From a virus: DNA of 23,252 nt. A program made the position numbers and the translations under genes. Below are positions 696 through 16,207 of the stretch, one piece after another (within the stretch, counting starts at the first letter, position 1; every line of letters begins with the position of its first letter). The notes beneath the pieces are model-generated. The model saw only the letters and a program-made list of their open reading frames with translations, made no database searches and had not been told where the DNA came from. The stretch covers positions 1 through 23,252 of the IMG/VR virus record IMGVR_UViG_3300020466_000020. One strand, given 5' to 3'.

Positions 696-703
696 TATTT
701 ATA
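696..703 (-). promoter_or_regulatory. T4-type late promoter of gp18
   Basis: The minus strand reads TATAAATA, the T4 late promoter -10 element used by gp55-type sigma factors. It lies 62 bases ahead of the gp18 start and overlaps the gp17 stop codon (699-701), so sheath can be transcribed separately from the packaging genes. Confidence 0.75.
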
Positions 704-2327
704 AAAATTTTTCTTTCTCATCTGCCCATATCCAATAGTCACCATCCATAACCTCCGCTTCTGGTTCATGTCCGTCTACCACAAGCCCAAATGGTGTCAA
801 ATCATTTTCTATCATTCTCATCTGTGAATTGTATAAATTGTCACGAATATCTACATTAGTCAAATCCTTAAAGAATGTATTAGTTGATAACCAAGCAAAT
901 AGTACCATACACATGGCAAGGTCATCGTGGTATCCCTCATCAGCAGCAAATGTACCACTCCTTTCAACAAAAGTTGATAGTTCACTTATACATTCAGCAT
1001 CAAATAGTAAGAACTTCTGTTCCTCAATCAAACTTTTTAGTGCCAAACACCCCTGTCTTTTTACTGCTTTTGATGTTCGCACTCCTAGAGTACTTTGTTT
1101 TCCGAAGCCAGGCGAAACATATTGTTTGTTTTTTTCCTGTACACAACTAAAAATGTTCTCATACTCTAGTTCTTGGTGTAGTATATCGACTACCTGTTGA
1201 CCAATATCGTTTGTCTCAAGTAACACATACGCACCATTATAATCTTTTGCGACTTTATTAATAAAGTCTGGGTATAATAATGGTGAGATTTTGTTATCTC
1301 TATACTTACCAACAACTTTAAACGGCATTTGTGTGATATCAACCACAATAAAAGCCGAATAATCTCCACCGATACCTCTCGCGGTATCAGCTGAGATTAC
1401 ATAATATTTATCTTCTTGAGGTTCTTCATAAATATCCAGACCATCCTTCTTATATACTGGGTCAACTGAAGACATAGTAGAGAGAGCCTTACCACTAATC
1501 AAAGTATTCGTTGACCCCAAGAAGTCACACAACACCTCTTGATTGAACTTTACTTCACCCAATAACTTAAACTGTTCCTCTATCCACGCATCATCTCGGC
1601 CTGGAATTTCAGTATGAGGAATGAACATATTTTCAAATCCATTCGTACCCTTTTCCGATTCGTTCCAGAATTTCCAGAAGTGATTGTATCCTAGTGGAGT
1701 AGATGTCAATAGAATCTTTGTGGTTTCACCAGCAGAGATAGTAGGATATACAGATGCAAAAAACTCATCTGCTATGTTGTTTGGTATGATTGCAGCCTCA
1801 TCGATATACAACCAGTTAACTGATTTACCCCGAATACCAGATGATGTGGTTGCAGATGTAAACACGCGAGAACCATTCTCTAAGTCCACATCCCCCTTGT
1901 TCCATGTCTTAACACCCTGTTGCATCCAAATAGGAAGATGTTCATACATGGTTTGATATCTGTTTAATACTTCACGGGCAGCAGCAGTCTTGTTCGCCAT
2001 AATAGCAATGTTCTTATCTGCGTTAAATATAGAATAATGCAATATACACGCGGCTGCTGTTACTGTCTTACCTTGCTGTCTACCTTCCATGAGAATAGTC
2101 TTTCGATTATTCATGATGAAATCAACCTTCTTTTTCTGACAGTCGTACAGTTTAAAAGGTTGTAGACCTTTATCCAAGGTTACTATTTGACAGTAATTTT
2201 CTATAAAATAAACTGGGTCACTTTCACATTTTACAAATTCCTCAAATTCATCCTTTGTAAAATTGTGTTCGTACCCAATTGGTTTTAGATTGGGATTACC
2301 GTGATATGATTGTTCAACCCCAGCCAT
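699..2327 (-). CDS. 17: Terminase large subunit gp17 (DNA-packaging ATPase/nuclease)
   Basis: This is the motor that pumps phage DNA into the prohead and cuts the concatemer. At 542 aa it is somewhat shorter than T4 gp17 (610 aa), mostly at the N-terminus. The Walker A motif is EGRQQGKT at residues 81-88 and Walker B is LYIDEA with D176 and E177. The coupling motif III is TSTP at 208-211. The C-terminal RNase H-like nuclease has its acidic residues in ISADTARG (D314), LLETND (E371) and GYHDDLA (D468/D469). All catalytic residues appear intact. The start overlaps the end of the inserted glycosyltransferase-like gene by 14 bases, suggesting translational coupling. In T4 the gene directly follows gp16; here another gene intervenes. 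Confidence 0.98.
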   Translation of the reverse strand: MAGVEQSYHGNPNLKPIGYEHNFTKDEFEEFVKCESDPVYFIENYCQIVTLDKGLQPFKLYDCQKKKVDFIMNNRKTILMEGRQQGKTVTAAACILHYSIFNADKNIAIMANKTAAAREVLNRYQTMYEHLPIWMQQGVKTWNKGDVDLENGSRVFTSATTSSGIRGKSVNWLYIDEAAIIPNNIADEFFASVYPTISAGETTKILLTSTPLGYNHFWKFWNESEKGTNGFENMFIPHTEIPGRDDAWIEEQFKLLGEVKFNQEVLCDFLGSTNTLISGKALSTMSSVDPVYKKDGLDIYEEPQEDKYYVISADTARGIGGDYSAFIVVDITQMPFKVVGKYRDNKISPLLYPDFINKVAKDYNGAYVLLETNDIGQQVVDILHQELEYENIFSCVQEKNKQYVSPGFGKQSTLGVRTSKAVKRQGCLALKSLIEEQKFLLFDAECISELSTFVERSGTFAADEGYHDDLAMCMVLFAWLSTNTFFKDLTNVDIRDNLYNSQMRMIENDLTPFGLVVDGHEPEAEVMDGDYWIWADEKEKFL

Positions 2328-3351
2328 TTACTTCTCCATCTGCTTGTCTTTTGATATGCTCAAAAAATCCTGGCTCCTCTATATTTGGTAGTGTGGGTAT
2401 ATCTTCTGTCTCTAATATCATTTCAAAACATCTTTGTCGATTGTGTTCTCTTTCTAACTTTGTACCCTTTACCAGTTCTTTTAAAGGATACTGCAATAAA
2501 TTTTTAAATTGTTTATAGAATTCTTTAAATCTTTCCTCTTCATCTTGTATATCATCAAACTGATAATCTATAAACCCATCATGTAACATGAACCCCATTG
2601 ACTTCAATTCTTTATACATTCCCTGTCCACCAAACCCCATACATAATTTTCTATGTAGAAGAGGTTTAAAAGTTTTTTCAGTAAACCTTACATGACTAGT
2701 TCTAGTCTCAACAAATAAATCTATAAGTATCTTGTCATAGAATTCTGCTGGACTCTGTGTTACTGCCCATCCACCTTTTTTATGTAAAGGATGAGTATTG
2801 TGGTCAATGTTTCCAACTGTTGACCAATCTAACATATACTTCTGTTGGATGTCAGTGTATATTCCTTTACGCAAGTTAGAACAGTAATTATTAATTAAGT
2901 TATCTCTTTCTAACAACTCCCATAACTTTACTCTGTATGGTCTCATTGAATGATTTAAACAACAAAAGTGTGTGTCCTCATTCCCAGAGTAATCTTTTAT
3001 ATTAGTTCTTTTTAATTCTTCATCAAAGTATGAACCATGTCCAATAACTTGCCACAAAAAATATAATCCATATGGTTCATGCACGACATTTCTTGGTAAC
3101 AAACTACTGGAATCGATATATGAACTATCGATAATAGTGAAACTTAAAGAAGGAAACTCCGAAAAAACATTTAAGTTTATTAATTCTTTTCGGGGTAAGA
3201 AGGGATTTAAAACTTCTTCTTTTAGATTATGAACCACTAACCTATTTATCTTATTCTCAGAAAGATGTTCTTCTAGTTTGGGAACAGTAAGGGGTTTTCT
3301 AAAGTGTTCCATTAACCAGTATTCAGCTGGATTCTGGGTCAATTGAGTCAT
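2314..3351 (-). CDS. Glycosyltransferase-like protein inserted between the terminase genes
   Basis: A 345-aa protein with no signal peptide or membrane segment. Residues 222-260 contain RFTEKTFKP, then GGQGMYKELKSMGFMLHDGF. This pattern (TEKTxKP, then a G..., then L..LxSxGF) recalls a nucleotide-sugar-binding half seen in phage and bacterial glycosyltransferase-like or fucosyltransferase/exostosin-like proteins. An upstream FCCLNHSMRPYR segment (129-140) also fits that family. The substrate is unknown. The gene overlaps terS by 29 bases and terL by 14, so it is woven into the packaging operon. No strong ribosome site is seen ahead of the ATG at 3351. A second ATG at 3312, 11 bases after the terS stop, would give 332 aa and is a real alternative start. 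Assignment rests on motif recognition only. Confidence 0.6.
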   Translation of the reverse strand: MTQLTQNPAEYWLMEHFRKPLTVPKLEEHLSENKINRLVVHNLKEEVLNPFLPRKELINLNVFSEFPSLSFTIIDSSYIDSSSLLPRNVVHEPYGLYFLWQVIGHGSYFDEELKRTNIKDYSGNEDTHFCCLNHSMRPYRVKLWELLERDNLINNYCSNLRKGIYTDIQQKYMLDWSTVGNIDHNTHPLHKKGGWAVTQSPAEFYDKILIDLFVETRTSHVRFTEKTFKPLLHRKLCMGFGGQGMYKELKSMGFMLHDGFIDYQFDDIQDEEERFKEFYKQFKNLLQYPLKELVKGTKLEREHNRQRCFEMILETEDIPTLPNIEEPGFFEHIKRQADGEVNGWG

Positions 3352-3781
3352 GGTCTATAATTTTTTCGTTTTCTTTCTTTAGTGCCTTCAACATATCAGA
3401 AGTTGTACCAGTAAATACTAGGTTATTTGTTGTCTTACTGATAGTCTTTGGTTCATCTGAATTCTTTTCAATGCGATGTTTCTTCTCTTGGACTTCCATC
3501 ATGTCTTTGGCTTGTTCACCCATAGTCTTAATGATTTGTCCAGCGACTTCATAGGCCCGAGGGTTGTCACTATTGGTAGCAACATTTAGAATACCTTGAG
3601 CAGCTTCTTCCGCGTACTCAGCAGAGCGTTTCAAAAGATTTCTTGCTTCCTCAAAATCTTTGTCTAGTTTCTCGTCCTCTTTTTCAGGCACAGTGATAGC
3701 ACCACCTTTCTTTTCAGCAAGTTCTGTAGTTACGGTGTTAAATGTTTTATCAAGTGCATCAAATACTTTATTTTTTGGCAT
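3323..3781 (-). CDS. 16: Terminase small subunit gp16
   Basis: This is the small terminase subunit, which recognises the packaging substrate and regulates the gp17 motor. It has 152 residues against 164 in T4. The central segment follows the T4 gp16 pattern: a coiled-coil helix pair around residues 40-105 with NSDNPRAYEVAGQIIKTM matching the T4 'SPR..EV...L..M' core. A C-terminal NLVFTGTTSDMLKAL corresponds to the T4 'VFxGSxxEL' tail. The N-terminus begins MPKNKVFDALDK, common in marine T4-like homologues. It lies two bases after gp15, as in T4 order, but is followed by an inserted gene instead of gp17. Confidence 0.88.
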   Translation of the reverse strand: MPKNKVFDALDKTFNTVTTELAEKKGGAITVPEKEDEKLDKDFEEARNLLKRSAEYAEEAAQGILNVATNSDNPRAYEVAGQIIKTMGEQAKDMMEVQEKKHRIEKNSDEPKTISKTTNNLVFTGTTSDMLKALKKENEKIIDHDSIDPESS

Positions 3782-3783
3782 AG

Positions 3784-4779
3784 TTATACATAAGTTTGGT
3801 CAAACTCCTCCACGAACCTATATGGGTCATCCTTATAGGGGTCTGCATTATAATTAGGTGGTTCTTCAAATGTCACGGTAGGTGCTTCTGAATAACCACT
3901 TCCAGCGTCATCTATAACAATGTTGGTTACCACTCCATCTGTTAACTCAGCATGTGCTCTCGCGTTACCAGTAAGAGTAATGTTAGGTGGACTTACATAT
4001 CCTGCCCCACCATATGTTATAGTGAATCCTGTTACCGAACCACCACTTATTGTAGCAGTTGCGGTTGGTAGTGTTGTTCCAACTGAAATTGTATTTGTAA
4101 CCTTCGGGCCAGCGAAACTACTGTTTTCATATGTTTCTGCAATTGCCTTTTTGATGAAGGATTGTTTGTCTACAAATCCATAATAATTTAATTTCATGGT
4201 AAAGTTCAGTGTCCAGTTAATACTTTGTCTATCTGCAAATGCACCTTCAAATGTATCTTCGTAACTAACACTATCCAAAGTTATTTTTATATCTCTTTTA
4301 ATACCCAACTCAGGCAAATCATTTATTGTAACATTGAAGTCTGGGTTAAAGTATGGAAAAATCTGTTCTACTATCTGTAATGCATCCTCTTGATTCTTTG
4401 CAAACACATACAAAGATATGTTCATATCATATGGGGTGGATACAAAACTTGTCCTATATGAATTTGTTTCCGCACCAGATGTAGTTATATTCTTTTGTAC
4501 AGGCGAAACCTTTCTTGATGGGTCATATTGAAACCCAACAATCTCAAATCCCATGCGTGGCAAACTAATCGCAACCTCACCACGAGACTCAGTATTCGGA
4601 ATTGCCTCAATCCTAGTTAAAAACTTTTGTTTTGTGGAGTATGAAAGAGGAACCCGAATCACCTGTTCAGTAACACCACCAGCGTTTGACCTGTTTATTT
4701 GGATATTATTAAAGATAGTACCAAATGCAATTATGGCCTTGCGTGTGTGTTGATTGTAAAACTGTTTATTCTTAAACAT
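3784..4779 (-). CDS. 15: Tail sheath stabiliser / completion protein gp15
   Basis: The T4 gp15 homologue forms a ring capping the tail sheath and tube and joins the tail to the head-neck. The core (residues 1-225) has the expected FYNQHTRKAIIAFGTIFNNI start and an FADRQSINWTLNFTMKLNYYGFV segment. T4 gp15 is 272 aa, while this one is 331. The extra length is a C-terminal extension at about 240-305 made of two beta repeats ending GGAGYVSPPNITL and GSGYSEAPTVTF. These match the GGxGY modules in gp18 and in the giant virion protein here. The start codon overlaps the gp14 stop (TAATG), showing tight coupling. Confidence 0.9.
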   Translation of the reverse strand: MFKNKQFYNQHTRKAIIAFGTIFNNIQINRSNAGGVTEQVIRVPLSYSTKQKFLTRIEAIPNTESRGEVAISLPRMGFEIVGFQYDPSRKVSPVQKNITTSGAETNSYRTSFVSTPYDMNISLYVFAKNQEDALQIVEQIFPYFNPDFNVTINDLPELGIKRDIKITLDSVSYEDTFEGAFADRQSINWTLNFTMKLNYYGFVDKQSFIKKAIAETYENSSFAGPKVTNTISVGTTLPTATATISGGSVTGFTITYGGAGYVSPPNITLTGNARAHAELTDGVVTNIVIDDAGSGYSEAPTVTFEEPPNYNADPYKDDPYRFVEEFDQTYV

Positions 4780-5531
4780 TATATTTCACCAAATGGATTC
4801 TTCTCTGTGAAGTCTAGTATGTTAGATGCAGTCTGCCATGAGTCAAAGTCCTCATTGTCCACACCAACATTTCCTCTACTGGTTTGGAAACTCTCTAATA
4901 TAAGAGTATCGTTGTCTTCTAATTTCAATAGGTCTCCATTCTCCAACTGGAACTGGAACTGTAAAATGTCAAGACTTTGTAAGTCTTCGATTCCATCGAT
5001 ATCACTATCACCAGTATCAAGTCTTTCTGAACTGTACTCAAAGAGTTCGCATTGAAGTCTGAATGTGTAAATCTTTCCTAACTGATAGAATGGGTTCTGA
5101 AACTCCACCATCTTAATCTCAAATAAAGATTTTGTTTTTGGGAAGAATAGTAAGTCCCCTTCAGCTGGTCTTGCCTTTAACTGGAATGTACCACCAGCAT
5201 CTTCTTCTCTATCAACCATCTGTTCCCACCTTCTCTTGGAAAGAACAAATGTTGCTTGGTCTCTGATTTCTATTCCAAACCTAGTAAATAGTTCTCCTTC
5301 ACCCTCATATCCCTCGACATTTTCCATATACATTTCGAGTGGATACTGTTGCGTGAACTTAGACAATTCATCTTCATCAAAGATAGTGTCCCTGTTTACC
5401 AAAGTCCTAGGCATATAGTGAACATCGTGTCCATATATCTTTAGACTTTCAATAACCAAGTCTTCTACTAAACGCTGTTCGTTAGCAGTTCCACTTGTAT
5501 TGCCAGATTGGAAGTAAACATTAGTTGCCAT
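4779..5531 (-). CDS. 14: Neck protein gp14
   Basis: The T4 gp14 homologue (250 aa against 256 in T4) is a head-completion/neck protein that, with gp13, seals the portal after packaging and forms the tail-docking site. The visible signature is the N-terminus MATNVYFQSGNTSGTANEQR followed by VEDLVIESLKIYGHDVHYMPR, and a central FFPKTKSLFEIKMVEFQNPF beta segment. No domain insertion or truncation is seen. It lies four bases after gp13 and overlaps the start of gp15 by one base. Confidence 0.93.
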   Translation of the reverse strand: MATNVYFQSGNTSGTANEQRLVEDLVIESLKIYGHDVHYMPRTLVNRDTIFDEDELSKFTQQYPLEMYMENVEGYEGEGELFTRFGIEIRDQATFVLSKRRWEQMVDREEDAGGTFQLKARPAEGDLLFFPKTKSLFEIKMVEFQNPFYQLGKIYTFRLQCELFEYSSERLDTGDSDIDGIEDLQSLDILQFQFQLENGDLLKLEDNDTLILESFQTSRGNVGVDNEDFDSWQTASNILDFTEKNPFGEI

Positions 5532-5535
5532 TTAT

Positions 5536-6492
5536 TTACCCTGTCATCATCATTGGGGGTAACTCATACTTCATCTGCATTTCATCTTCTATGATAGAAA
5601 TTTCTTGAATTGCTTCTCCGTATATTTGGTCACCATTAAGTGTTACTCCGCCTGGCAACGCGATTCCCCCGAACTTTTTCATATTCTCGCCCCACTGTCT
5701 CTTGATAAGAGCAGTCGCATATCTTTTTAAGAACATATCATCATAGACTTCTGTAAATGTAGCGGGGTCTATAATTGAATATGCTTCCGCGACAATGTAG
5801 TTATCAATGTCAAATGTTCCATCCATATCTGTATCAAGATATAGTCTGTTTGTTTTTCTATTGAACCTAATAGGTCTTTCATTTCTGAAAATGTTTTCCA
5901 ACAAATTCATATGTGTTTTGACCATTGAGTAGTATGTAATATCAGCAGAAAGTAGATTATATAAGTCATTCAATGCAAACTGATAATCTACATCAAATAA
6001 TCCATCTGATTTACTACCAACTAATGCACCAAACTTAAATGCTCTAACTACATTCAATACTTCGTTACCTATTGGGATGTATCCATTTTCTATATCCCCC
6101 TTTGATATACTTTGTATCGTAGCAGTTGTACCAGAATTTGAACCAGTAATAACCTCATTCGCCTCAAATACTTCTGCTGTACTTGGTTTCTCATATACTA
6201 CTGAAGTACCAGAACTTGATTTGTGTACTGTTGTTTTTGCACCAGATGTTCCACCAGTAATGGTCTCTCCAGCTTCAAAAGTAGCACTACCAGTTAAGGT
6301 TAATGTTGAACCAGTTAGTTTATGTTTGATGTACGCCCTCTCGACACCATCGAAATGGTACTCATTCCAGTGTTGAAAGGCATCATCTATTCTGTCTGAT
6401 ATTTGGTCTTCATCGACATTGATTTCGATTACAGGATGTCCTAATCTTCGCAAACAATAGTCAATGAGTCCTTGTCTTGTGGATAACGCCAT
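5536..6492 (-). CDS. 13: Neck protein gp13
   Basis: The T4 gp13 homologue (318 aa against 309) acts with gp14 in head completion. The N-terminus MALSTRQGLIDYCLRRLGHP and the following EDQISDRIDDAFQHWNEYHFDG segment are characteristic of the family. Residues about 64-130 hold a tandem beta repeat: FEAGETITGGTSGAKTTV (72-89) and FEANEVITGSNSGTTATI (109-126). It looks like a small decoration domain inserted between the N-terminal helices and the conserved remainder (GNEVLNVVRAFKFGA onward). A late promoter (6527-6534) sits 35 bases ahead of the ATG, so this gene likely heads the gp13-to-gp17 transcript. Confidence 0.92.
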   Translation of the reverse strand: MALSTRQGLIDYCLRRLGHPVIEINVDEDQISDRIDDAFQHWNEYHFDGVERAYIKHKLTGSTLTLTGSATFEAGETITGGTSGAKTTVHKSSSGTSVVYEKPSTAEVFEANEVITGSNSGTTATIQSISKGDIENGYIPIGNEVLNVVRAFKFGALVGSKSDGLFDVDYQFALNDLYNLLSADITYYSMVKTHMNLLENIFRNERPIRFNRKTNRLYLDTDMDGTFDIDNYIVAEAYSIIDPATFTEVYDDMFLKRYATALIKRQWGENMKKFGGIALPGGVTLNGDQIYGEAIQEISIIEDEMQMKYELPPMMMTG

Positions 6493-6526: not shown

Positions 6527-6534
6527 TATTTATA
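6527..6534 (-). promoter_or_regulatory. T4-type late promoter of the gp13-gp17 group
   Basis: The minus strand reads TATAAATAGTC, an exact TATAAATA late element, 35 bases ahead of the gp13 ATG. It lies across the end of the upstream fibre gene in the 46-base gap. Confidence 0.75.
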
Positions 6535-8796: not shown

Positions 8797-9447
8797 ATGA
8801 GAACAATTGTTACACTAAAATACGGAAACAAATACTCTTCCAATGATGTAAACACTATTTATAATATGTGCAAACATCAATGTCAGAACTTCTGGTGTCG
8901 TACCGATGACCCAGAAGGATTGGAACAGGGGATACTAACCTCACATATCAAGCACTCTATGGGGAACTGGGAAAAAATCTTACTTCTTGGTAAAGATTTT
9001 GGTGGCCCAACCATATATTTAGACCTTGATGTTATAGTTCAAGGTAACCTTACCCCCTTATTTAACCTTTGCGATGAACCTACCATATGCGAAACATACT
9101 GGAAAGACTTCGGTGGCGCGTGGAACTCTAGTGTTATGGCATGGAGTTGTAAGAATGCCGCCTATATACCAGAGGCATTTTTTAAAAACTTTGATTATAA
9201 CTTGCATAAATACGATGGTAAGGATGATAACTTTTTATATGATGGAAGGTTCTTCAAACGAACATTTCCAAAAGGATTAATATATTCTTTTCTTGCTGGG
9301 GTAGACATGGAAACAGATACCTCACCAAGAGCTCATCAAATAAAACCAGATTATCCAATCGTCTTGTTAAACGGACAAAATGAAGTCAATTACAATTTGA
9401 GACAAAAATATTATGATGCACTTTCTTTGCATGAAATGGGGCAATAA
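8797..9447 (+). CDS. DxD glycosyltransferase-like protein (copy 1 of 4)
   Basis: A 216-aa protein, first of the plus-strand block. It opens with IVTLKYGNKYSSNDVNTIYNM, matching the K[WY]GxKYxxxxVNxxY start shared by the next three glycosyltransferase-like genes. YLDLDVIVQGNLTPL carries DLD at residues 76-78, the metal and nucleotide-sugar-binding DxD motif of GT-A fold enzymes (GT8-like). WNSSVMAW follows at about 111. It likely moves a sugar from a nucleotide donor to an unknown acceptor. No clear Shine-Dalgarno site precedes the ATG. It overlaps the next gene by 35 bases and is the shortest copy, lacking the 'HPxxWFG' insert of copies 2 and 3. Confidence 0.75.
   Translation: MRTIVTLKYGNKYSSNDVNTIYNMCKHQCQNFWCRTDDPEGLEQGILTSHIKHSMGNWEKILLLGKDFGGPTIYLDLDVIVQGNLTPLFNLCDEPTICETYWKDFGGAWNSSVMAWSCKNAAYIPEAFFKNFDYNLHKYDGKDDNFLYDGRFFKRTFPKGLIYSFLAGVDMETDTSPRAHQIKPDYPIVLLNGQNEVNYNLRQKYYDALSLHEMGQ
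8856..8863 (-). promoter_or_regulatory. Late promoter for the leftward group, inside the divergent gene
   Basis: The minus strand reads TATAAATAGTG, an exact late element 79 bases ahead of the ATG at 8777. It lies within the first 70 bases of the plus-strand gene that starts at 8797, so the divergent genes share sequence. Confidence 0.7.
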
Positions 9448-11929
9448 GTACTCTCCAGAATATGTAAACAATTTATACAAAATGGTTCAACAGAACTACA
9501 CCAAAAGGTTTAAGTTCATATGTTATACAGACGAACCAGAAGGCATACACAAAGATGTTAAGATTAGGTCTATTCCAAATGTAGACCCTCTACATCCACG
9601 GCACTGGTTTGGTCAAGAAAACTTTTGTTGGGATAGAGCAAAGTTTCTTGTACTAAACTCCCACCACTGGTTGAGAACCAAAGGCCCTTTTTGTTATTTG
9701 GATTTGGATGTTATCATTCAGAATAACATCGATGACATATTTGAACTATCTAAAACTCCTCACATGATTTATTCTAATTGGGAGAATCCAAAAGTTCTCA
9801 AAGACAGAAGATTTACAGACATGCGTGGCACATTATATAACTCTAGTGTCATGTTATGGTGTACTGACCAAGGGGAAAAGATTTACAATGATGTAATCAA
9901 ACACAAGGACACAGTGTTTAAAACCTTTTGGAAGGGAACCGATAACTACTACCCATACAGAGAACATCAAGCAGTAGGTGATAACTACTGGTCGTTCTTA
10001 CCAAATGATTGGGTATACTCCTACAATAGAGGAAGACAACATCCCAATGATGTCACGCAACACCTGTACAGAGAAGATGCAAAGTTCTGTATCTTTGAAG
10101 CATCCGTTGGTGGTAGAAATAAAAACAATCTTAAACCACATGAGTTGAGAGATTACAATCTACTCACGCATTGGCATGGCAAAACAGAATTTGAAAGATT
10201 GTGGTTACCCAAGTTTCCAGATAACTTCTTTGATAAAAATAAACACACCAATAAAATATCTCAGTTGTTGCGTACCAAGGACTACGATACACTAGAAGAA
10301 AAATTTCTCAAAGACTTACCACAACTAAAACAGGATTGGGAACAATATTCAAAAGAGTTTGAAACACTACGCGAGTGGATTGGATTTGAATCTTTGACAG
10401 ATAGTATGCTACAAGAAAACTATATGGACAAGGATACAATATCAGATATAAAAGAACTTATCGAAACAAATGACTTACAATCCCTTTCAGAGAAAATGAT
10501 TAATGACTTCCCAGAGTTGAAAGAATATTTTAAAGGTACAATTTCTGAAGTGAAGGTACATGTACCAGAATTGGAAAGAGAGATATCTGACCTTATCTTT
10601 ATACGACAAATAGAACCACACCACAAAGATATTATCAAAGAACTATATGACTCTGGTGATATGATTTCAATGCACAAGAAGTTTCTCGCTGACTATCCAG
10701 ATGACCCTGTACTATTACAAGGTGATGAGTCTTTGTATTGGAATAAAGATGCAAATGAGATATATGACTTATACAAACAGAGGTACATATACAAGTCTCA
10801 CCTAACCGCGTTTGATGAAGCGAAAGAACTGGGGCCTGTTAGGTATTTCTGGAACATAAGTTTCCTACAATGTTTCGCGTTGTACAAAAGACTATGGGAT
10901 AAGAACACACTACCACAAATTAAAAAAGATGTTATGAGTAACATCAAAGAACATGGGATGCAAAGGGTGTTCTGGGATGCATCAATTGAAGATGTTCAAT
11001 CACTGTACAAGAAATACTATCTACAGAACCTAAAAGAGTTATTTTATAAAGAGGATTATGAGAAAGTATTTGAAAGACTATACAATATCATGCCCAAACA
11101 AGAACTCATATCCATTATAAATCAAGATAGTGTAAAAGATAATGACACTCTTGTCAAGTATTTCCAAATGCATGGAGAACAATATAGTGACTTATACACA
11201 GGATTGTATGATGATGGCAATCCAGAAGGTGCATTAATACAACTATCTACCAAACAAAATGATACTGGGAATGAATTTAATGATATTTTTGTCAATGGAA
11301 AAGAACATACACTAGATTCTCTCAAGACCGTAGTTGAAAACTTCAAGTTACAATGGGTTACATTTATGTGTGAAATCACAGACCCGACAAACTGTGACGA
11401 AATTGAGTCCATTTGTCGGTATTTTAAAGAAAAATTAGGTTGTACAGTCACCGTTCAAACATTCAAGGCATATATAAAAGACCTACCTTTTGTTGATAGG
11501 GTTGAACATGTACTTCCTACACAACCAACCGAGAACGAAATAAAGGTAAATGATAGTATTGCTAGTGATATTCCAGTGAGTCTGGAAACATTGAAACGGT
11601 TTAAGAAGGATGAGGAAGTACGAACCAAGAAACCCAAGATGAAAGAGAAGGAACCAGTATGGTGTGACGCGAGGAAAAGTGAATATTTTTATGTGAATTC
11701 GCAAGGCAACCTTTTTCCGTGTGCGTACATTGCTAGAGATGTAATGGAACACAAATTATTTCCTTATCATCCTATTGACTATACATACAATTTCAAGTAT
11801 AATGATGGGACGAAATTTAATATCGGTGAGATAATTTATAACCATGACTTTGAGAATATAAGTCAACACTTGAAGAGGAAACCCCTCAGCGTTTGTACCA
11901 GAAATTGTGGAGATTGCCATGCGAGTTAA
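9413..11929 (+). CDS. Glycosyltransferase / helical repeat / SPASM-like iron-sulfur fusion
   Basis: An 838-aa three-part protein. Residues 1-265 are a DxD glycosyltransferase-like domain (KWGNKYSPEYVNNLY; DLD at 97-99; NSSVMLW) related to copies 1, 3 and 4. Residues about 265-640 are helical with degenerate repeats such as DYDTLEEKFLKDLPQL, DLQSLSEKMINDFPEL and DMISMHKKFLADYPDD. The C-terminal part (about 640-838) first has VTFMCEITDPTNCDEIESI, resembling the late barrel part of radical SAM proteins. It then has a SPASM-like cysteine set: CX13GX4C (WCDAR...GNLFPC) and a terminal CTRNCGDC. No CX3CX2C radical SAM cluster motif is seen anywhere, so it appears to keep only the auxiliary iron-sulfur domain. 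ATG 9413 or 9416 is chosen to match the paralogue N-termini. Substrate unknown. Confidence 0.7.
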   Translation: MMHFLCMKWGNKYSPEYVNNLYKMVQQNYTKRFKFICYTDEPEGIHKDVKIRSIPNVDPLHPRHWFGQENFCWDRAKFLVLNSHHWLRTKGPFCYLDLDVIIQNNIDDIFELSKTPHMIYSNWENPKVLKDRRFTDMRGTLYNSSVMLWCTDQGEKIYNDVIKHKDTVFKTFWKGTDNYYPYREHQAVGDNYWSFLPNDWVYSYNRGRQHPNDVTQHLYREDAKFCIFEASVGGRNKNNLKPHELRDYNLLTHWHGKTEFERLWLPKFPDNFFDKNKHTNKISQLLRTKDYDTLEEKFLKDLPQLKQDWEQYSKEFETLREWIGFESLTDSMLQENYMDKDTISDIKELIETNDLQSLSEKMINDFPELKEYFKGTISEVKVHVPELEREISDLIFIRQIEPHHKDIIKELYDSGDMISMHKKFLADYPDDPVLLQGDESLYWNKDANEIYDLYKQRYIYKSHLTAFDEAKELGPVRYFWNISFLQCFALYKRLWDKNTLPQIKKDVMSNIKEHGMQRVFWDASIEDVQSLYKKYYLQNLKELFYKEDYEKVFERLYNIMPKQELISIINQDSVKDNDTLVKYFQMHGEQYSDLYTGLYDDGNPEGALIQLSTKQNDTGNEFNDIFVNGKEHTLDSLKTVVENFKLQWVTFMCEITDPTNCDEIESICRYFKEKLGCTVTVQTFKAYIKDLPFVDRVEHVLPTQPTENEIKVNDSIASDIPVSLETLKRFKKDEEVRTKKPKMKEKEPVWCDARKSEYFYVNSQGNLFPCAYIARDVMEHKLFPYHPIDYTYNFKYNDGTKFNIGEIIYNHDFENISQHLKRKPLSVCTRNCGDCHAS
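11909..11912 (+). promoter_or_regulatory. Ribosome binding site that decides the start at 11919
   Basis: GGAG six bases ahead of the ATG at 11919 favours it over an in-frame GTG at 11907. Confidence 0.6.
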
Positions 11930-12731
11930 TGTAGTTTGTAGTAAATGGGGAGAAAAATATGGCCCGCACTTTGTTAACCGTCTTTATAACATGTCTAAGC
12001 GTAATACACCTTCGACAATGGATTTTCATTTCTACTGTTATACCGACAATGATAAGGGACTATTACCAGATATTAAGGTTATACCATTTCCCGATATCCC
12101 TACCATCCATCCTAAATACTGGTTCGGCGCTGATGAGTTTAAGTATGGCATGGCTCGTTGTTGGGACAGGCCTAAAACTTTCGTCTTTAATACTCACAAT
12201 TTCGGCCCAGATAAGCCGACAGGACGCTTCATCTTCTTTGATTTGGATGTAATTATCCAGAATGATATTACACCACTTCTAACTTACAACACAGAACAAC
12301 CAACTAAAATGCGGTCTTGGTGGCAAGACCCGAAACCCATGCAGACTAGACAATTTAAACTAGCACATGGCGCGTACACGAATGGAAGTTGTCAAGTATG
12401 GAGTGATGACCAATGTGAACCTATATGGGAAGATGTATTAGAGAATCAAGAAAAGATATGGTTCACATACACGGATGGAACTGATAACTATCACTCTTGG
12501 AGATGGGGTGAATATGGTGCTAAACTGTGGGATTACTTTCCATCATGGATGGCGTACTCATATAATAGAGGTAGGTCATGGGATGAAGATGATTTGAATG
12601 TGGGTATATACAGACCCAATTGTATTTTGTGTGTATTTAATGTAGATTTATTACCGTTTGAGGATGAAAGCAGAGGACATACTAAACAAGATGACCTCGC
12701 AGACCCCAAACTATTAGAACATTGGAGGTAA
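11919..12731 (+). CDS. DxD glycosyltransferase-like protein (copy 3 of 4)
   Basis: A 270-aa protein starting MRVNVVCSKWGEKYGPHFVN, aligned with the other copies. DLD lies at residues 108-110 in FIFFDLDVIIQNDITPLL, and PTIHPKYWFG (61-70) parallels HPRHWFG of the 838-aa fusion. Later YTDGTDNYHSWRWGE and SWMAYSYNRGR segments also match the fusion's N-terminal domain, so these two are the closest pair. It looks like a complete single-domain GT-A enzyme. The start at ATG 11919 overlaps the end of the fusion gene by 11 bases. The stop overlaps the strong ribosome site of the next small gene. Acceptor unknown. Confidence 0.75.
   Translation: MRVNVVCSKWGEKYGPHFVNRLYNMSKRNTPSTMDFHFYCYTDNDKGLLPDIKVIPFPDIPTIHPKYWFGADEFKYGMARCWDRPKTFVFNTHNFGPDKPTGRFIFFDLDVIIQNDITPLLTYNTEQPTKMRSWWQDPKPMQTRQFKLAHGAYTNGSCQVWSDDQCEPIWEDVLENQEKIWFTYTDGTDNYHSWRWGEYGAKLWDYFPSWMAYSYNRGRSWDEDDLNVGIYRPNCILCVFNVDLLPFEDESRGHTKQDDLADPKLLEHWR
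12724..12729 (+). promoter_or_regulatory. Ribosome binding site of the 52-aa membrane peptide
   Basis: GGAGGT, a near-perfect Shine-Dalgarno sequence, overlaps the preceding stop codon by one base and lies four bases ahead of the ATG at 12734. It supports the short gene. Confidence 0.75.
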
Positions 12732-12733
12732 AG

Positions 12734-12892
12734 ATGAAAAAATTATGGAAACTATGGGCAATGTCTTTAGGTGAAAAAGCCTCGGACAATTCAAAAGAGG
12801 CAGATGCAGTTGCAGTAATGAGAACTGTAGTTGTCTTGGTAAACTTTTTTACTTGTTTCTTTATCATATCTGGAGTATTAAGACATTGGTAG
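12734..12892 (+). CDS. 52-aa single-helix membrane peptide
   Basis: The protein reads MKKLWKLWAMSLGEKASDNS, then a charged stretch, then a hydrophobic helix (about residues 29-47, rich in V, L, F and I) and ends GVLRHW. The layout suggests a cytoplasmic amphipathic N-terminus and one transmembrane segment. The gene has an excellent GGAGGT ribosome site and sits between the third glycosyltransferase-like gene and the oxygenase gene, with 5 bases to the latter. Short proteins with a similar MKKLWKLWA...GEKAS start and ...RHW end are, to my recollection, widespread in marine T4-like phages with no assigned role. Membrane anchoring of the cassette is conceivable but unproven. Confidence 0.75.
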   Translation: MKKLWKLWAMSLGEKASDNSKEADAVAVMRTVVVLVNFFTCFFIISGVLRHW

Positions 12893-12897
12893 GATAC

Positions 12898-13530
12898 ATG
12901 GCAATGATGAGTCCCAACTGGTTCATAGCAGAAGAACTAATATCAAAACATAACTGCATATGGACAGGTGAGGTGAGTCCCGAAACCTTGGAGTATTATA
13001 GAAACTTTGTTGGTGATACTTCAAACAATTATAATTTAGCAGGACATCTGGAAAGGCAAATAAGAATAGAAGACATGCCTTCATCTGTGAAAGTAGATAT
13101 CATGAATAACTTTTACAGACCAGAAATAGAACACTATATGAAGGTGCAAAAAGATACTAGTCATCCCCTACTTCCAATAGGATTAGAAAGTGTGTGGATA
13201 AACTATCAGAAGAAACATGAATTCAATCCCATGCATAATCATGGCGGATTGTTTTCATTTGTTATCTTTATAAATGTACCATATGATTTAGATGAGGAAG
13301 ACAAATTCTTTCCAGAAAAGAAAGACCCCAAAACATCAAGACTTTGTTTTGTGATGAACTCTCCAATGGGTGTCCCAGAAGAAGTAGCGATACCAGTTGA
13401 TAAAGGATTTGAAGGGAAGATGATTTTATTTGATGCGAAACTACCACATATGGTTTATCCTTTTTACACTTCAGATGAAGAAAGAATTACCGCGTCTGGT
13501 AATGTAGTTTATGTGAGGGAAGGGTTTTGA
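12898..13530 (+). CDS. 2OG-Fe(II) oxygenase
   Basis: A 210-aa putative 2-oxoglutarate/Fe(II)-dependent oxygenase (double-stranded beta helix). The candidate iron-binding pair is H113-N-H115 in NPMHNHGGLFSFVIFINVP. The distal histidine is H184 in MILFDAKLPHMVYPF, and R196 in ERITASGNV is the likely 2-oxoglutarate-binding arginine. This order fits the Pfam 2OG-FeII_Oxy_5 type family common in marine myophages. The reaction would be hydroxylation of an unknown protein, sugar or nucleotide. ATG 12898 is chosen because AGGA lies just before it and the MSPNWF region is family-like. The open frame extends back to an ATG at 12853, but that overlaps the 52-aa gene and lacks a ribosome site. Its stop overlaps the TTG start of the next gene. 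Confidence 0.8.
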   Translation: MAMMSPNWFIAEELISKHNCIWTGEVSPETLEYYRNFVGDTSNNYNLAGHLERQIRIEDMPSSVKVDIMNNFYRPEIEHYMKVQKDTSHPLLPIGLESVWINYQKKHEFNPMHNHGGLFSFVIFINVPYDLDEEDKFFPEKKDPKTSRLCFVMNSPMGVPEEVAIPVDKGFEGKMILFDAKLPHMVYPFYTSDEERITASGNVVYVREGF

Positions 13531-14201
13531 ACATATACACAGTAAAGTGGGGTGACAAGTATAACCATCAACATGTAAATAATATCTATGAGGCTTGTCT
13601 ACAATATCTCCCCCAAGATTTTCGTTTCTATTGCTTAACAGAAAATCCAAAAGGATTAGATGAGAACATTACGCCACTCGCATTGCCGGGCGGAAACAAG
13701 TTGGTAAAGTGGTGGAATAAAATGTACCTCTTCGATGAAACTATTGTTACACAGAAGGGTGAAAAGATGTTCTTTGATATTGATACTATCATTCAGAAAG
13801 ATATAACTCCTATCGCAAACTATGACCCAGAGGATTGTCTTTGTTTCGTAAAGACATACTGGCACGATTTAGAAACTCAATTTAAAAACACTAGACACAT
13901 TCCACATAAATATACAGATCTAAACTCTTCGGTTCTGAGGTGGAATGATAACTTAAACACAGAAGAGATTACAGAATACTTTAATAAATATCAGAAACAA
14001 ATACTATGGTACTATCGTGGTCTTGACAACTTCTTTTATAACAGAAGAATAACCAAAATCAAATTGTTTCCTATAGGTTGGGTATATAGTTTTAACCAAG
14101 GCTATATCTTCCCACACGATATAGATAAACATACATACCGCGAACTACCTTATGTTTGTATTTTTGACTCAATGGGGAAAGGTGAAGATGTTAAATTTTA
14201 A
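13527..14201 (+). CDS. DxD glycosyltransferase-like protein (copy 4 of 4), TTG start
   Basis: A 224-aa protein, N-terminus NIYTVKWGDKYNHQHVNNIYEA, matching copies 1-3. The DxD motif is DID at residues 84-86 in MFFDIDTIIQKDITPI. NSSVLRW (132-138) and WVYSFNQGY match later conserved blocks. The start is TTG at 13527, whose last two bases begin the TGA stop of the oxygenase gene. The conserved N-terminal residues begin right after this codon, and no ATG is available that would keep them. AAGGG lies four bases upstream at 13520-13524. One of the window's three GATC sites lies at 13917. The substrate is unknown. Confidence 0.75.
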   Translation: MNIYTVKWGDKYNHQHVNNIYEACLQYLPQDFRFYCLTENPKGLDENITPLALPGGNKLVKWWNKMYLFDETIVTQKGEKMFFDIDTIIQKDITPIANYDPEDCLCFVKTYWHDLETQFKNTRHIPHKYTDLNSSVLRWNDNLNTEEITEYFNKYQKQILWYYRGLDNFFYNRRITKIKLFPIGWVYSFNQGYIFPHDIDKHTYRELPYVCIFDSMGKGEDVKF

Positions 14202-14871
14202 TTTTTTAAATAACTTTAAATACTGGGGTGAAGCATTACATGTTATAGAAAACAAAATGCCTCACAAACTCGTAGACTTTAGACAGTCTCTACAAGAAAA
14301 TAATATGGATGCTTCAATCTGGTTGGTTGAAGAGTTGAAGGAATACTTGGAAGAATATTATACCAAACAAGGCAATCTTAGAATATTAGTTCTTAATTCT
14401 TGGTTGGGTCTTCCTATGGTTCCACTCCTATGTGAAAACTTAGATGTCGCACAAATACATTTAGTAGACATGGATGAAGAAAGCATCAATCTTTCTAAGT
14501 CATTCCACAAGTATTACGCACAAGAAAAGTTTGTAAATATTCGTCACTGGAATCTGGACATACCATTTGAGTTTGAGAATCTAAACAAAATAGATGTTGA
14601 CATAATAATCTGTATTCACACCGAACAAATGTATCCCCTAACAGAACTAGTAGGTAAGAATCCTAATGCCGTCTACGCGATGCAAAACTCAAATGTCGTT
14701 GAAGAGATGTATGGTATCAATTGTGTGAACTCAATAGAGGCACTAAAAGAACAAATAGGAATAGAAGAGTGTGGATATGAGGGAACCAAACAACAGATAT
14801 ATTATTCTTGGGACGGTAAGAAAGAGTTTGACCGATTCATGGTCATAGGACAGAGGGAAGGATTCTTCTAA
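14188..14871 (+). CDS. SAM-dependent methyltransferase-like protein
   Basis: A 227-aa protein, last of the plus-strand block. It has the outline of a class I Rossmann methyltransferase: ILVLNSWLGLPMVPLL (66-81) in the motif I position, IHLVDMDEESINLS (100-113) with an acidic residue ending beta-2, and IDVDIIICIHTEQMYPL (135-151) in the motif IV position. The glycine-rich loop is atypical (SWLGLP in place of GxGxG), so SAM binding is not certain. ATG 14188 is chosen because AAAGGTGA lies at 14178-14185; this overlaps the preceding gene by 14 bases. An earlier in-frame ATG at 14152 lacks such a site. The stop shares two bases with the stop of the convergent gene. Confidence 0.6.
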   Translation: MLNFNFLNNFKYWGEALHVIENKMPHKLVDFRQSLQENNMDASIWLVEELKEYLEEYYTKQGNLRILVLNSWLGLPMVPLLCENLDVAQIHLVDMDEESINLSKSFHKYYAQEKFVNIRHWNLDIPFEFENLNKIDVDIIICIHTEQMYPLTELVGKNPNAVYAMQNSNVVEEMYGINCVNSIEALKEQIGIEECGYEGTKQQIYYSWDGKKEFDRFMVIGQREGFF

Positions 14872-15506
14872 AAATCTAATAGTGGATATTCACTCATATC
14901 AATATCTGCTACCATCTGTTTCCATAGGTATTCGTCTGGTATAACAAAACCAAATGTTTGACGCGGGCCTCTACTTCCAGCAGTATGCCAGTATGGAGTT
15001 TCGTCTTTACCACCATAATATCCTATCTTCACATTCCACCCCACTGGGTCATGGATAGTCACAACATTTCCATCTTCATCTAAGTGTTTAAAGAATCCAC
15101 AACCATCACTATAAGACATTAAAATGTTGTAGCCGGGACAATCCCAGTTATTATGCCACGACATGAAACCACCAGCAGGATAATAAACATGTACCGCATT
15201 GAACTTAGCACATAACCACGCGGATAAATCAGCACATGTTTTCATAGACTCTCTTCTAACTTCTTTCGGTACACCGTGTGTCAAATGAAAATCACACACC
15301 TTTGCGAACTCTGGCGGCCCTTTGTGGTCTTCACCTTTTGCCTGAACTTCTTTAAGATACTCTTCTGAACAATAGTAATCCATATCCCTGTCACCAAACC
15401 TTCTCTCATCCATTGGTAAAGGTTGTGGACAGTTTTCATTATAGAAGTCCATCCATTTGTCGAGGATTTCTATTAACTCTGGATTTACTAATTCTATTGT
15501 TTTCAT
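14868..15506 (-). CDS. Dioxygenase-like (2OG-Fe(II) type) protein
   Basis: A 212-aa protein. The C-terminal half has the look of a double-stranded beta-helix oxygenase. VYYPAGGFMSWHNNWDCPGY has H118 with D122 (or N120) as possible iron ligands. GYYGGKDETPYWHTAG gives H174 as candidate distal ligand, and SRGPRQTFGFVI gives R182 as candidate 2-oxoglutarate-binding arginine. The ligand spacing (HxxxD rather than HxD) is unusual, so catalysis is uncertain. The N-terminal half (DERRFGDRDMDYYCSEEYL) is unrecognised. Its ATG overlaps the stop of the upstream glycosyltransferase gene (ATGA), suggesting the two act together. Its stop overlaps that of the convergent methyltransferase-like gene. Confidence 0.5.
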   Translation of the reverse strand: MKTIELVNPELIEILDKWMDFYNENCPQPLPMDERRFGDRDMDYYCSEEYLKEVQAKGEDHKGPPEFAKVCDFHLTHGVPKEVRRESMKTCADLSAWLCAKFNAVHVYYPAGGFMSWHNNWDCPGYNILMSYSDGCGFFKHLDEDGNVVTIHDPVGWNVKIGYYGGKDETPYWHTAGSRGPRQTFGFVIPDEYLWKQMVADIDMSEYPLLDF

Positions 15507-16207
15507 CTTAACTGAAAGGATTCTTGTTCTTTATATACTCTATTCAAAGTATAGTGTGTTATGATAATAGGCATTCCCGCCAACTCTTCTGGTCGTTGTC
15601 CCATGCAAAAGTTCCATCTAGCATCTGGCCATGGGAAGTCTCCAACTTTAATTTTATCTTTATACTTTTTCTCTAAGAGATACCACATACTAAATGTATC
15701 CCACTTACATACTTCTCTAGGATATGGCGATGGGTCATATTCTGGTCTAATCTGGTCACAGTATTGTTGAAACCAATCCGCCATCAAATCCATCACAATC
15801 GGTTTCTTCTTATATACAAAGATACCACAATGATATATCATCTCTTCAGTATCGCTTAGTTTAGTTATCTTTGCATTGTACGGTCTGTTTCGCGTGAATA
15901 TTATATCATCTTTTCCTAGAAAAGTAAAGACTTTTTTTATATCTTCGTGTTGAATATAGGTGTCACAATCTATATACATTGTCTTGTCGTATGGTGTTCT
16001 GGATAATGCCCAGAGTTTTGCCCTCACATGGTCATCACAATAAATGATATTATCAAAAAGTTTTCTGTCATATGTTCCATCCCACCTTTCTTCTGTAAAA
16101 AGTGTAATCTTTGCTTTAGGATGAAAGTCTAATAATGATTCAGCGGATTGGACAGCAGCTTTTAGATATCTTTCATCACGAGATGCGACATAAAGATATC
16201 CGTTCAT
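15503..16207 (-). CDS. GT8-like glycosyltransferase (distinct from the plus-strand family)
   Basis: A 234-aa protein, start MNGYLYVASRDERYLKAAVQ. Residues 79-86 are IDCDTYIQ, with D80-C-D82 as DxD motif. YHCGIFVYKK (125-134) and IIITHYTLNRVY near the end fit GT8-like enzymes, where a late histidine helps bind the metal and diphosphate. It lacks the KWGxKY start, so it belongs to a separate family from the four plus-strand copies. The substrate is unknown. It starts in a TAATG overlap with the 170-aa gene and ends in an ATGA overlap with the dioxygenase-like gene. Confidence 0.75.
   Translation of the reverse strand: MNGYLYVASRDERYLKAAVQSAESLLDFHPKAKITLFTEERWDGTYDRKLFDNIIYCDDHVRAKLWALSRTPYDKTMYIDCDTYIQHEDIKKVFTFLGKDDIIFTRNRPYNAKITKLSDTEEMIYHCGIFVYKKKPIVMDLMADWFQQYCDQIRPEYDPSPYPREVCKWDTFSMWYLLEKKYKDKIKVGDFPWPDARWNFCMGQRPEELAGMPIIITHYTLNRVYKEQESFQLR

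Follow-up and report, generated by a model that had tools for sequence, protein, structure and literature searches.

Millard et al. are said to have described, in 2009, the gp15 to gp18 stretch of marine cyanomyoviruses as a hyperplastic region. Between gp16 and gp17, phage S-ShM2 carries eight genes, and pelagiphage HTVC008M has a 2OG-Fe(II) oxygenase and a tryptophan halogenase gene between terS and terL, the last of which overlaps terL by 23 nt. Excerpts of two cyanophage studies report that four hot spots, one of them between gp16 and gp17, hold clusters of the genes enriched in Synechococcus phages (PMC3037559), and that the g15–g18 region is hyper-variable, with 4 to 14 inserted genes at a position called unique to cyanophages (PMC2984593).

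The DNA analysed here, a 23,252-nt stretch of a viral record from IMG/VR (hereafter the window), has a candidate enzyme gene between terS and terL as HTVC008M does, whereas the enzymes differ and the two TerL proteins are 49% identical; no record in the phages collection has more than about 51% identity to the terL of the window. As far as the cyanophage excerpts go, the arrangement also resembles the cyanomyovirus region in placing accessory genes between gp16 and gp17 within a T4-like structural module, yet it consists of a single gene with tight overlaps instead of 4 to 14 genes. Like other cargo of the gp15–gp18 region, the insert is an extra gene absent from close relatives. The suggestion in the original prediction that the site is an insertion hotspot is supported by presence and absence of the gene, by allele swapping and by the published variable region, and is already known in kind; its view that an accessory gene is unexpected at this position does not stand, since marine T4-like phages with genes between gp16 and gp17 are documented. 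The site is thus ordinary for such phages, and what is new here is the cargo family, its allele exchange and the clean empty sites.

The operon, its insertion and allele exchange

The minus strand of the window reads, nearly free of spacers, gp13 (head-tail adaptor, 5536-6492; phrog_211, 2.7e-40), gp14 (neck protein or head closure, 4779-5531; Pfam T4_neck-protein, 1.7e-34), gp15 (tail sheath stabiliser, 3784-4779; Pfam T4-gp15_tss, 6.6e-74), terS (gp16, small terminase, 3323-3781; phrog_445 terminase small subunit, 7.5e-30), the inserted gene and terL (gp17, large terminase, 699-2327; Pfam Terminase_6N 8.7e-18 and Terminase_6C 1.5e-15, PHROGs terminase large subunit). The insert (2314-3351, ATG start) encodes a predicted GT-B glycosyltransferase of 345 aa from an unnamed phage family, as judged from the ORF list, homologues and a structural model. 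From the coordinates, its start shares 29 nt with the end of terS (3323-3351) and its end shares 14 nt with the start of terL (2314-2327), confirming the initial report of a gene that overlaps both neighbours, and its position and overlaps are conserved in its clade.

Motif matches to TATAAATA, which we take to be the T4-type late promoter consensus, lie upstream of gp13 (6527-6534, minus strand) and at the end of terL (696-703, minus strand), and a scan of the window found none between these two. There are four such boxes in the window, every one on the minus strand, where 1.98 would be expected; 15 of 100 shuffles had at least four. The upstream box is the probable promoter of the unit from gp13 through gp14, gp15, terS and the insert to terL. 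Since boxes flank this unit with none inside it, late co-transcription of the insert with the neck and terminase genes is likely, not proven, and the previously proposed late co-expression with the packaging motor is probable.

The same slot is occupied by the insert in six IMG/VR contigs (L002-L007) at 85-100% identity, of which L007 stops within the insert gene so that no terL is visible there. Contig L104 carries a diverged version, only 46-48% identical, in the same slot among flanking genes that are 91-96% identical, and four relatives with terL 90-94% identical to that of the window (L129, L130, L131 and L132) have an empty terS–terL site. We reject the possibility that 2314-3351 is a chance ORF, as it is kept in L002-L007, present in diverged form in L104 and of low dN/dS. 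The survey of terS–terL junctions that had been proposed covered 80 terL relatives among the matches listed, with terS measurable in 79, and is not a random sample in that the carriers L002-L007 are absent from these matches. Most junctions proved empty: among the matches listed, 75 of the 79 have a gene-free spacing of -35 to +13 nt and two more (L187 and L204) a spacing of 74-80 nt with no gene seen, leaving two carriers: L128, which is the same contig as L104 and whose gene is related to the insert at 46%, and L157 with a different ORF. That other single gene of L157, in a gap of 550 nt, is methyltransferase-like by eye (LEVGSYLGRSALAF). Two further contigs, L184 and L203, have an extra small gene, alike in both, just before terS in the gp15–terS interval.

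In the empty-site relatives, the ATG of terL lies inside the end of terS, e.g., ATAGACCATGAGCCAGATTGAAC in L132. The window, L005 and L003 have the ATG of the insert at exactly this point, and a new terL ATG is overlapped by the stop of the insert in the same out-of-frame register as before; the register of the insert's TGA is that of the terS stop in most empty-site relatives shown. L104 retains a short terS end, and from the printed junctions it looks as if the terS tail of the window, L005 and L003 had lost one base relative to the empty sites, extending terS beyond its old stop. The insert is a cassette gained in the terS/terL overlap, and empty sites and swapped alleles in near-identical backbones make a clean natural experiment on the entry of accessory genes, addressing how an essential pair of overlapping genes can take up another gene and stay intact.

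Synonymous divergence was estimated by a simple Nei-Gojobori method with codon bootstrap, using gp14, gp15, terS and terL as flanks. Between the window and L104, dS is 1.58 [1.09-2.91] for the insert, a value near saturation, against 0.44 [0.38-0.51] for the flanks, and between L005 and L003 the order is reversed (insert 0.20 [0.13-0.28], flanks 0.53 [0.46-0.62]). The intervals overlap for the window versus L005 (0.62 and 0.44 for insert and flanks) and versus L003 (0.52 and 0.58). Since insert and flanks differ in dS in the first two pairs, the cassette is able to move on its own, and it recombines separately from its flanks. Near copies of the insert have a dN/dS of 0.13-0.14, from which we infer purifying selection; the value is 0.29 versus L104, and 0.06-0.07 for the flanks.

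Predicted fold and donor site

AlphaFold2 run on a 148-row alignment gave a model with pTM 0.79 and pLDDT 74.6, exceeding 90 over about residues 211-310 and poor (pLDDT <50) over most of residues 1-20 and about 160-198; a single-sequence model (pLDDT 37) was discarded. In a Foldseek search of PDB, ranks 1-13 are all GT10 fucosyltransferase chains, with a best E of 1.2e-3 (no match in this search reached E 0.001) and a global TM to GT10 structures of 0.26-0.38, and the remainder of the best 50 rows are mainly other GT-B enzymes and then unrelated folds. The top rows of VIA are EXT2 (Z 9.4; 217 residues, rmsd 6.3), FUT11 (Z 8.4; 194 residues, rmsd 5.3) and H. pylori FucT (Z 8.4; 231 residues, rmsd 4.5), and a Z of 8-9 barely exceeds what VIA itself calls common. 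Both lists consist mostly of GT-B enzymes, with an aligned range of 1-319, and two Rossmann-like domains match GT-B over most of the chain in this predicted model, the N-terminal half of which is less certain. Structure prediction, the check envisaged originally, thus yielded a fold that matches glycosyltransferases instead of an unrelated one, and the glycosyltransferase reading is well supported at the level of the predicted fold.

The best 20 matches in BFVD have E values of 2.9e-6 or better, down to 1.7e-13, and comprise 19 proteins of uncultured Caudovirales phages (e.g., A0A6J5L755) that have no assigned function and one protein assigned to Mimivirus LCMiAC02; from rank 23 on, the list has named fucosyltransferases and glycosyltransferases. 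The Mimivirus entry, A0A4P6VPA8, ranks third among the structural matches (E 1.0e-10), which means either that the family extends to giant viruses or that the bin is of mixed origin.

GT10 was compared with the family through a reference alignment of phage GT10 proteins and PDB segments. The hhalign score of family against GT10 is 27.2 (P 0.0017) at a probability of only 15%; none of 150 column shuffles reached this score (maximum 23.7), and the reversed alignment scored 14.2, eight other families 11.1-22.1 and terminase 17.0. This alignment pairs R140, E215 and T224-E225-K226 of the insert protein with the Arg, Glu-Asn and TEK of GT10. In H. pylori FucT, the residues in contact with GDP-fucose include Tyr246, Glu249 and Lys250 (PMC11468063), and with that numbering matched through a chain alignment, E225 and K226 align with the donor-site residues Glu249 and Lys250.

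The signature that had drawn attention to the protein, TEKTFKP...MGF, corresponds to residues 224-230 and 252-254. Conserved positions of the family are R140 (143/147), E215 (148/148), T224-E225-K226 (E225 147/148, K226 148/148), G253, D266 and N304 (147/147), and all 15 paralogues found by profile keep R140, E215, E225, K226 and N304. Conservation inside the TEKTFKP motif is partly by construction, since the family was gathered mainly by that pattern. Tyr246 of GT10 is not kept: at this position the family mostly has Phe (71) or His (33), and the window protein has Arg. PF00852 matched neither the window record (the same model matched S-SKS1 and not the control genomes) nor the insert nor any of ten family members scanned. 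The GT10 alpha-1,3/1,4-fucosyltransferases (PF00852; H. pylori FucT 2NZW) are the top structural matches and share aligned Arg, Glu and Glu-Lys donor residues with the insert, whereas the members scanned lack a PF00852 match and the family does not keep Tyr246 and has its own G253, D266 and H303-N304. Because the donor residues align but Tyr246 is not kept, we call the protein GT-B and GT10-like, not a member of GT10. Predicted fold and aligned donor motif together bear out the initial suspicion of a glycosyltransferase-like protein, with the motif supporting it moderately.

Family distribution and candidate functions

An IMG/VR scan for DNA encoding TEKTFKP found at least 120 stretches, and iterated profile searches over the ORFs of the loci retrieved bring the family to at least 196 members. 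The insert protein has no relevant match in Pfam, PHROGs or NCBIfam; ten members gave only marginal rows against Pfam and PHROGs, and seven others only chance rows against NCBIfam. PDB sequence searches with the insert protein and with another member (A3) likewise returned chance-level rows only. In the phages collection, tblastn found nothing with the full insert protein or with two other members, and three records with the C-terminal part of the insert at E 5-9 that we judged to be chance. Bacterial and archaeal genomes, searched with a single motif pattern and a single tblastn query (member A4), gave 39 pattern stretches and no relative, and the family is, as far as these searches reach, apparently confined to viruses. 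Our literature search found no title or abstract opening that names it. This is a common phage family without a Pfam, PHROGs or NCBIfam model among the tested members, so its members would go without a name in phage annotation; once the family is recognised as GT-B, many hypothetical genes of marine phages would become candidate glycosyltransferases.

The family profile matched the whole records of six of eight relatives, with 3, 1, 3, 5, 3 and 4 matches. Two contigs (L232 and L233) each have two paralogues in an island with UDP-glucose/GDP-mannose dehydrogenase, carbamoyltransferase and SPASM radical-SAM genes, named by Pfam in L232 and by likeness of their starts in L233; the L232 island also has a GDP-mannose-dehydratase-type epimerase. 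In a third group (L234, L236 and L108), the copy lies upstream of a putative primase-like, zinc-finger gene recognised by eye, for which Pfam gave no match, and a query for this primase-adjacent slot found no match in the L005 record (137 kb, possibly incomplete). The tree unites the insert and L104 in a clade of eight rows (100/99) with L234, L236, L108 and L235:12380 and places the island copies of L232 and L233 outside it. Because of this separation, and with the insert clustering with the primase-adjacent copies, we do not favour an origin by recent duplication from the glycan-island paralogues of the phage itself.

We are fairly confident in an overall reading of the insert as a GT-B glycosyltransferase cassette, nearest to GT10, expressed from the late operon and without a role in packaging. 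The gene would have arrived in a marine T4-like phage as a compact cassette lacking a promoter and settled in the terS/terL overlap so as to overlap both neighbours, an arrangement by which it would be transcribed, and probably also translated, together with the genes of the late neck/terminase operon. The conserved set of Arg140, Glu215 and Glu225-Lys226 may then bind a nucleoside-diphosphate sugar, which would be transferred late in infection, with terS–terL serving as a tolerated landing site inside the known gp15–gp18 variable region. The product is most likely a late-expressed GT-B glycosyltransferase. Of the putative acceptors, a virion surface protein is the likeliest, though at somewhat less than even odds; the envelope of the host, or a surface glycan directed by the phage, is less likely. 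Also tentative is the broader proposal of an unclassified, virus-confined GT-B family with several paralogues per phage, one of which would be a swappable late-operon cassette, translation-coupled to the packaging motor and acting as an allele-exchange locus for virion glycosylation.

A GT-B enzyme could instead act on the host surface and remodel LPS, capsule or a phage-made glycan, e.g., blocking superinfection or aiding release. Paralogues of the same group do adjoin sugar-nucleotide and carbamoyltransferase genes, the usual company of polysaccharide synthesis, but the inserted copy sits in a late head-neck/terminase operon and not in that island, and we regard this alternative as possible without favouring it. 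It is improbable that the GT-B fold was kept as a sugar-binding or scaffold protein with enzyme activity lost: no catalytic base is assignable in the insert protein and Tyr246 of GT10 is replaced, yet the Arg, Glu and Glu-Lys of the donor site hardly vary and the low dN/dS of near copies (0.13-0.14) speaks against it. The T4 alpha- and beta-glucosyltransferases are also GT-B enzymes, and the GT-B fold of the insert together with its linkage to packaging genes would fit glycosylation of phage DNA before packaging. We consider this quite unlikely, as the structural neighbours shown are sugar transferases acting on proteins, glycans and small molecules and five of the eight records have 3 to 5 relatives each, mostly away from packaging genes. 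Among the best 50 rows of the Foldseek-PDB and VIA lists neither T4 enzyme appears, and a match to one may lie further down. The least probable reading by far, a dedicated packaging factor working with terminase, could appeal to the position and overlap with both subunits conserved in the clade and is rejected on the empty sites, including those of the very close relatives L129-L132, and on homologues that, far from being always terminase-linked, mostly lie elsewhere, next to the primase-like gene or in glycan islands. The GT-B cassette without a packaging role is the reading that we retain.

Other genes in the window

Residues about 58-131 of gp13 match tail-fibre families of PHROGs, as though this neck protein had taken up a fibre-type repeat. 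In gp15, the Gly-rich repeat at the C-terminal end has a further match in phrog_460 (head closure Hc2) and another in a stretch that lies downstream of terL in L002 (8940-9221), L004 and L005; in L005, this stretch lies within the ORF after terL.

Within 8797-16207, several ORFs with DxD-like GT-A motifs adjoin a tail-fibre-like gene, suggesting a further glycosylation module. Among them, 8797-9447 and 15503-16207 have weak Glyco_transf_8 matches in Pfam, and 11907-12731 and 13527-14201 are similar by eye. An 838-aa ORF on the plus strand (9413-11929) combines a DxD GT-A-like N-terminal part with a cysteine-containing C-terminal end, has only a weak DUF6557 match in Pfam and is possibly a fusion of a glycosyltransferase with an iron-sulfur domain. 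The plus-strand gene at 12853-13530 encodes a putative 2OG-Fe(II) oxygenase (Pfam 2OG-FeII_Oxy_5, 3.4e-9) and adjoins the glycosyltransferase-like genes.
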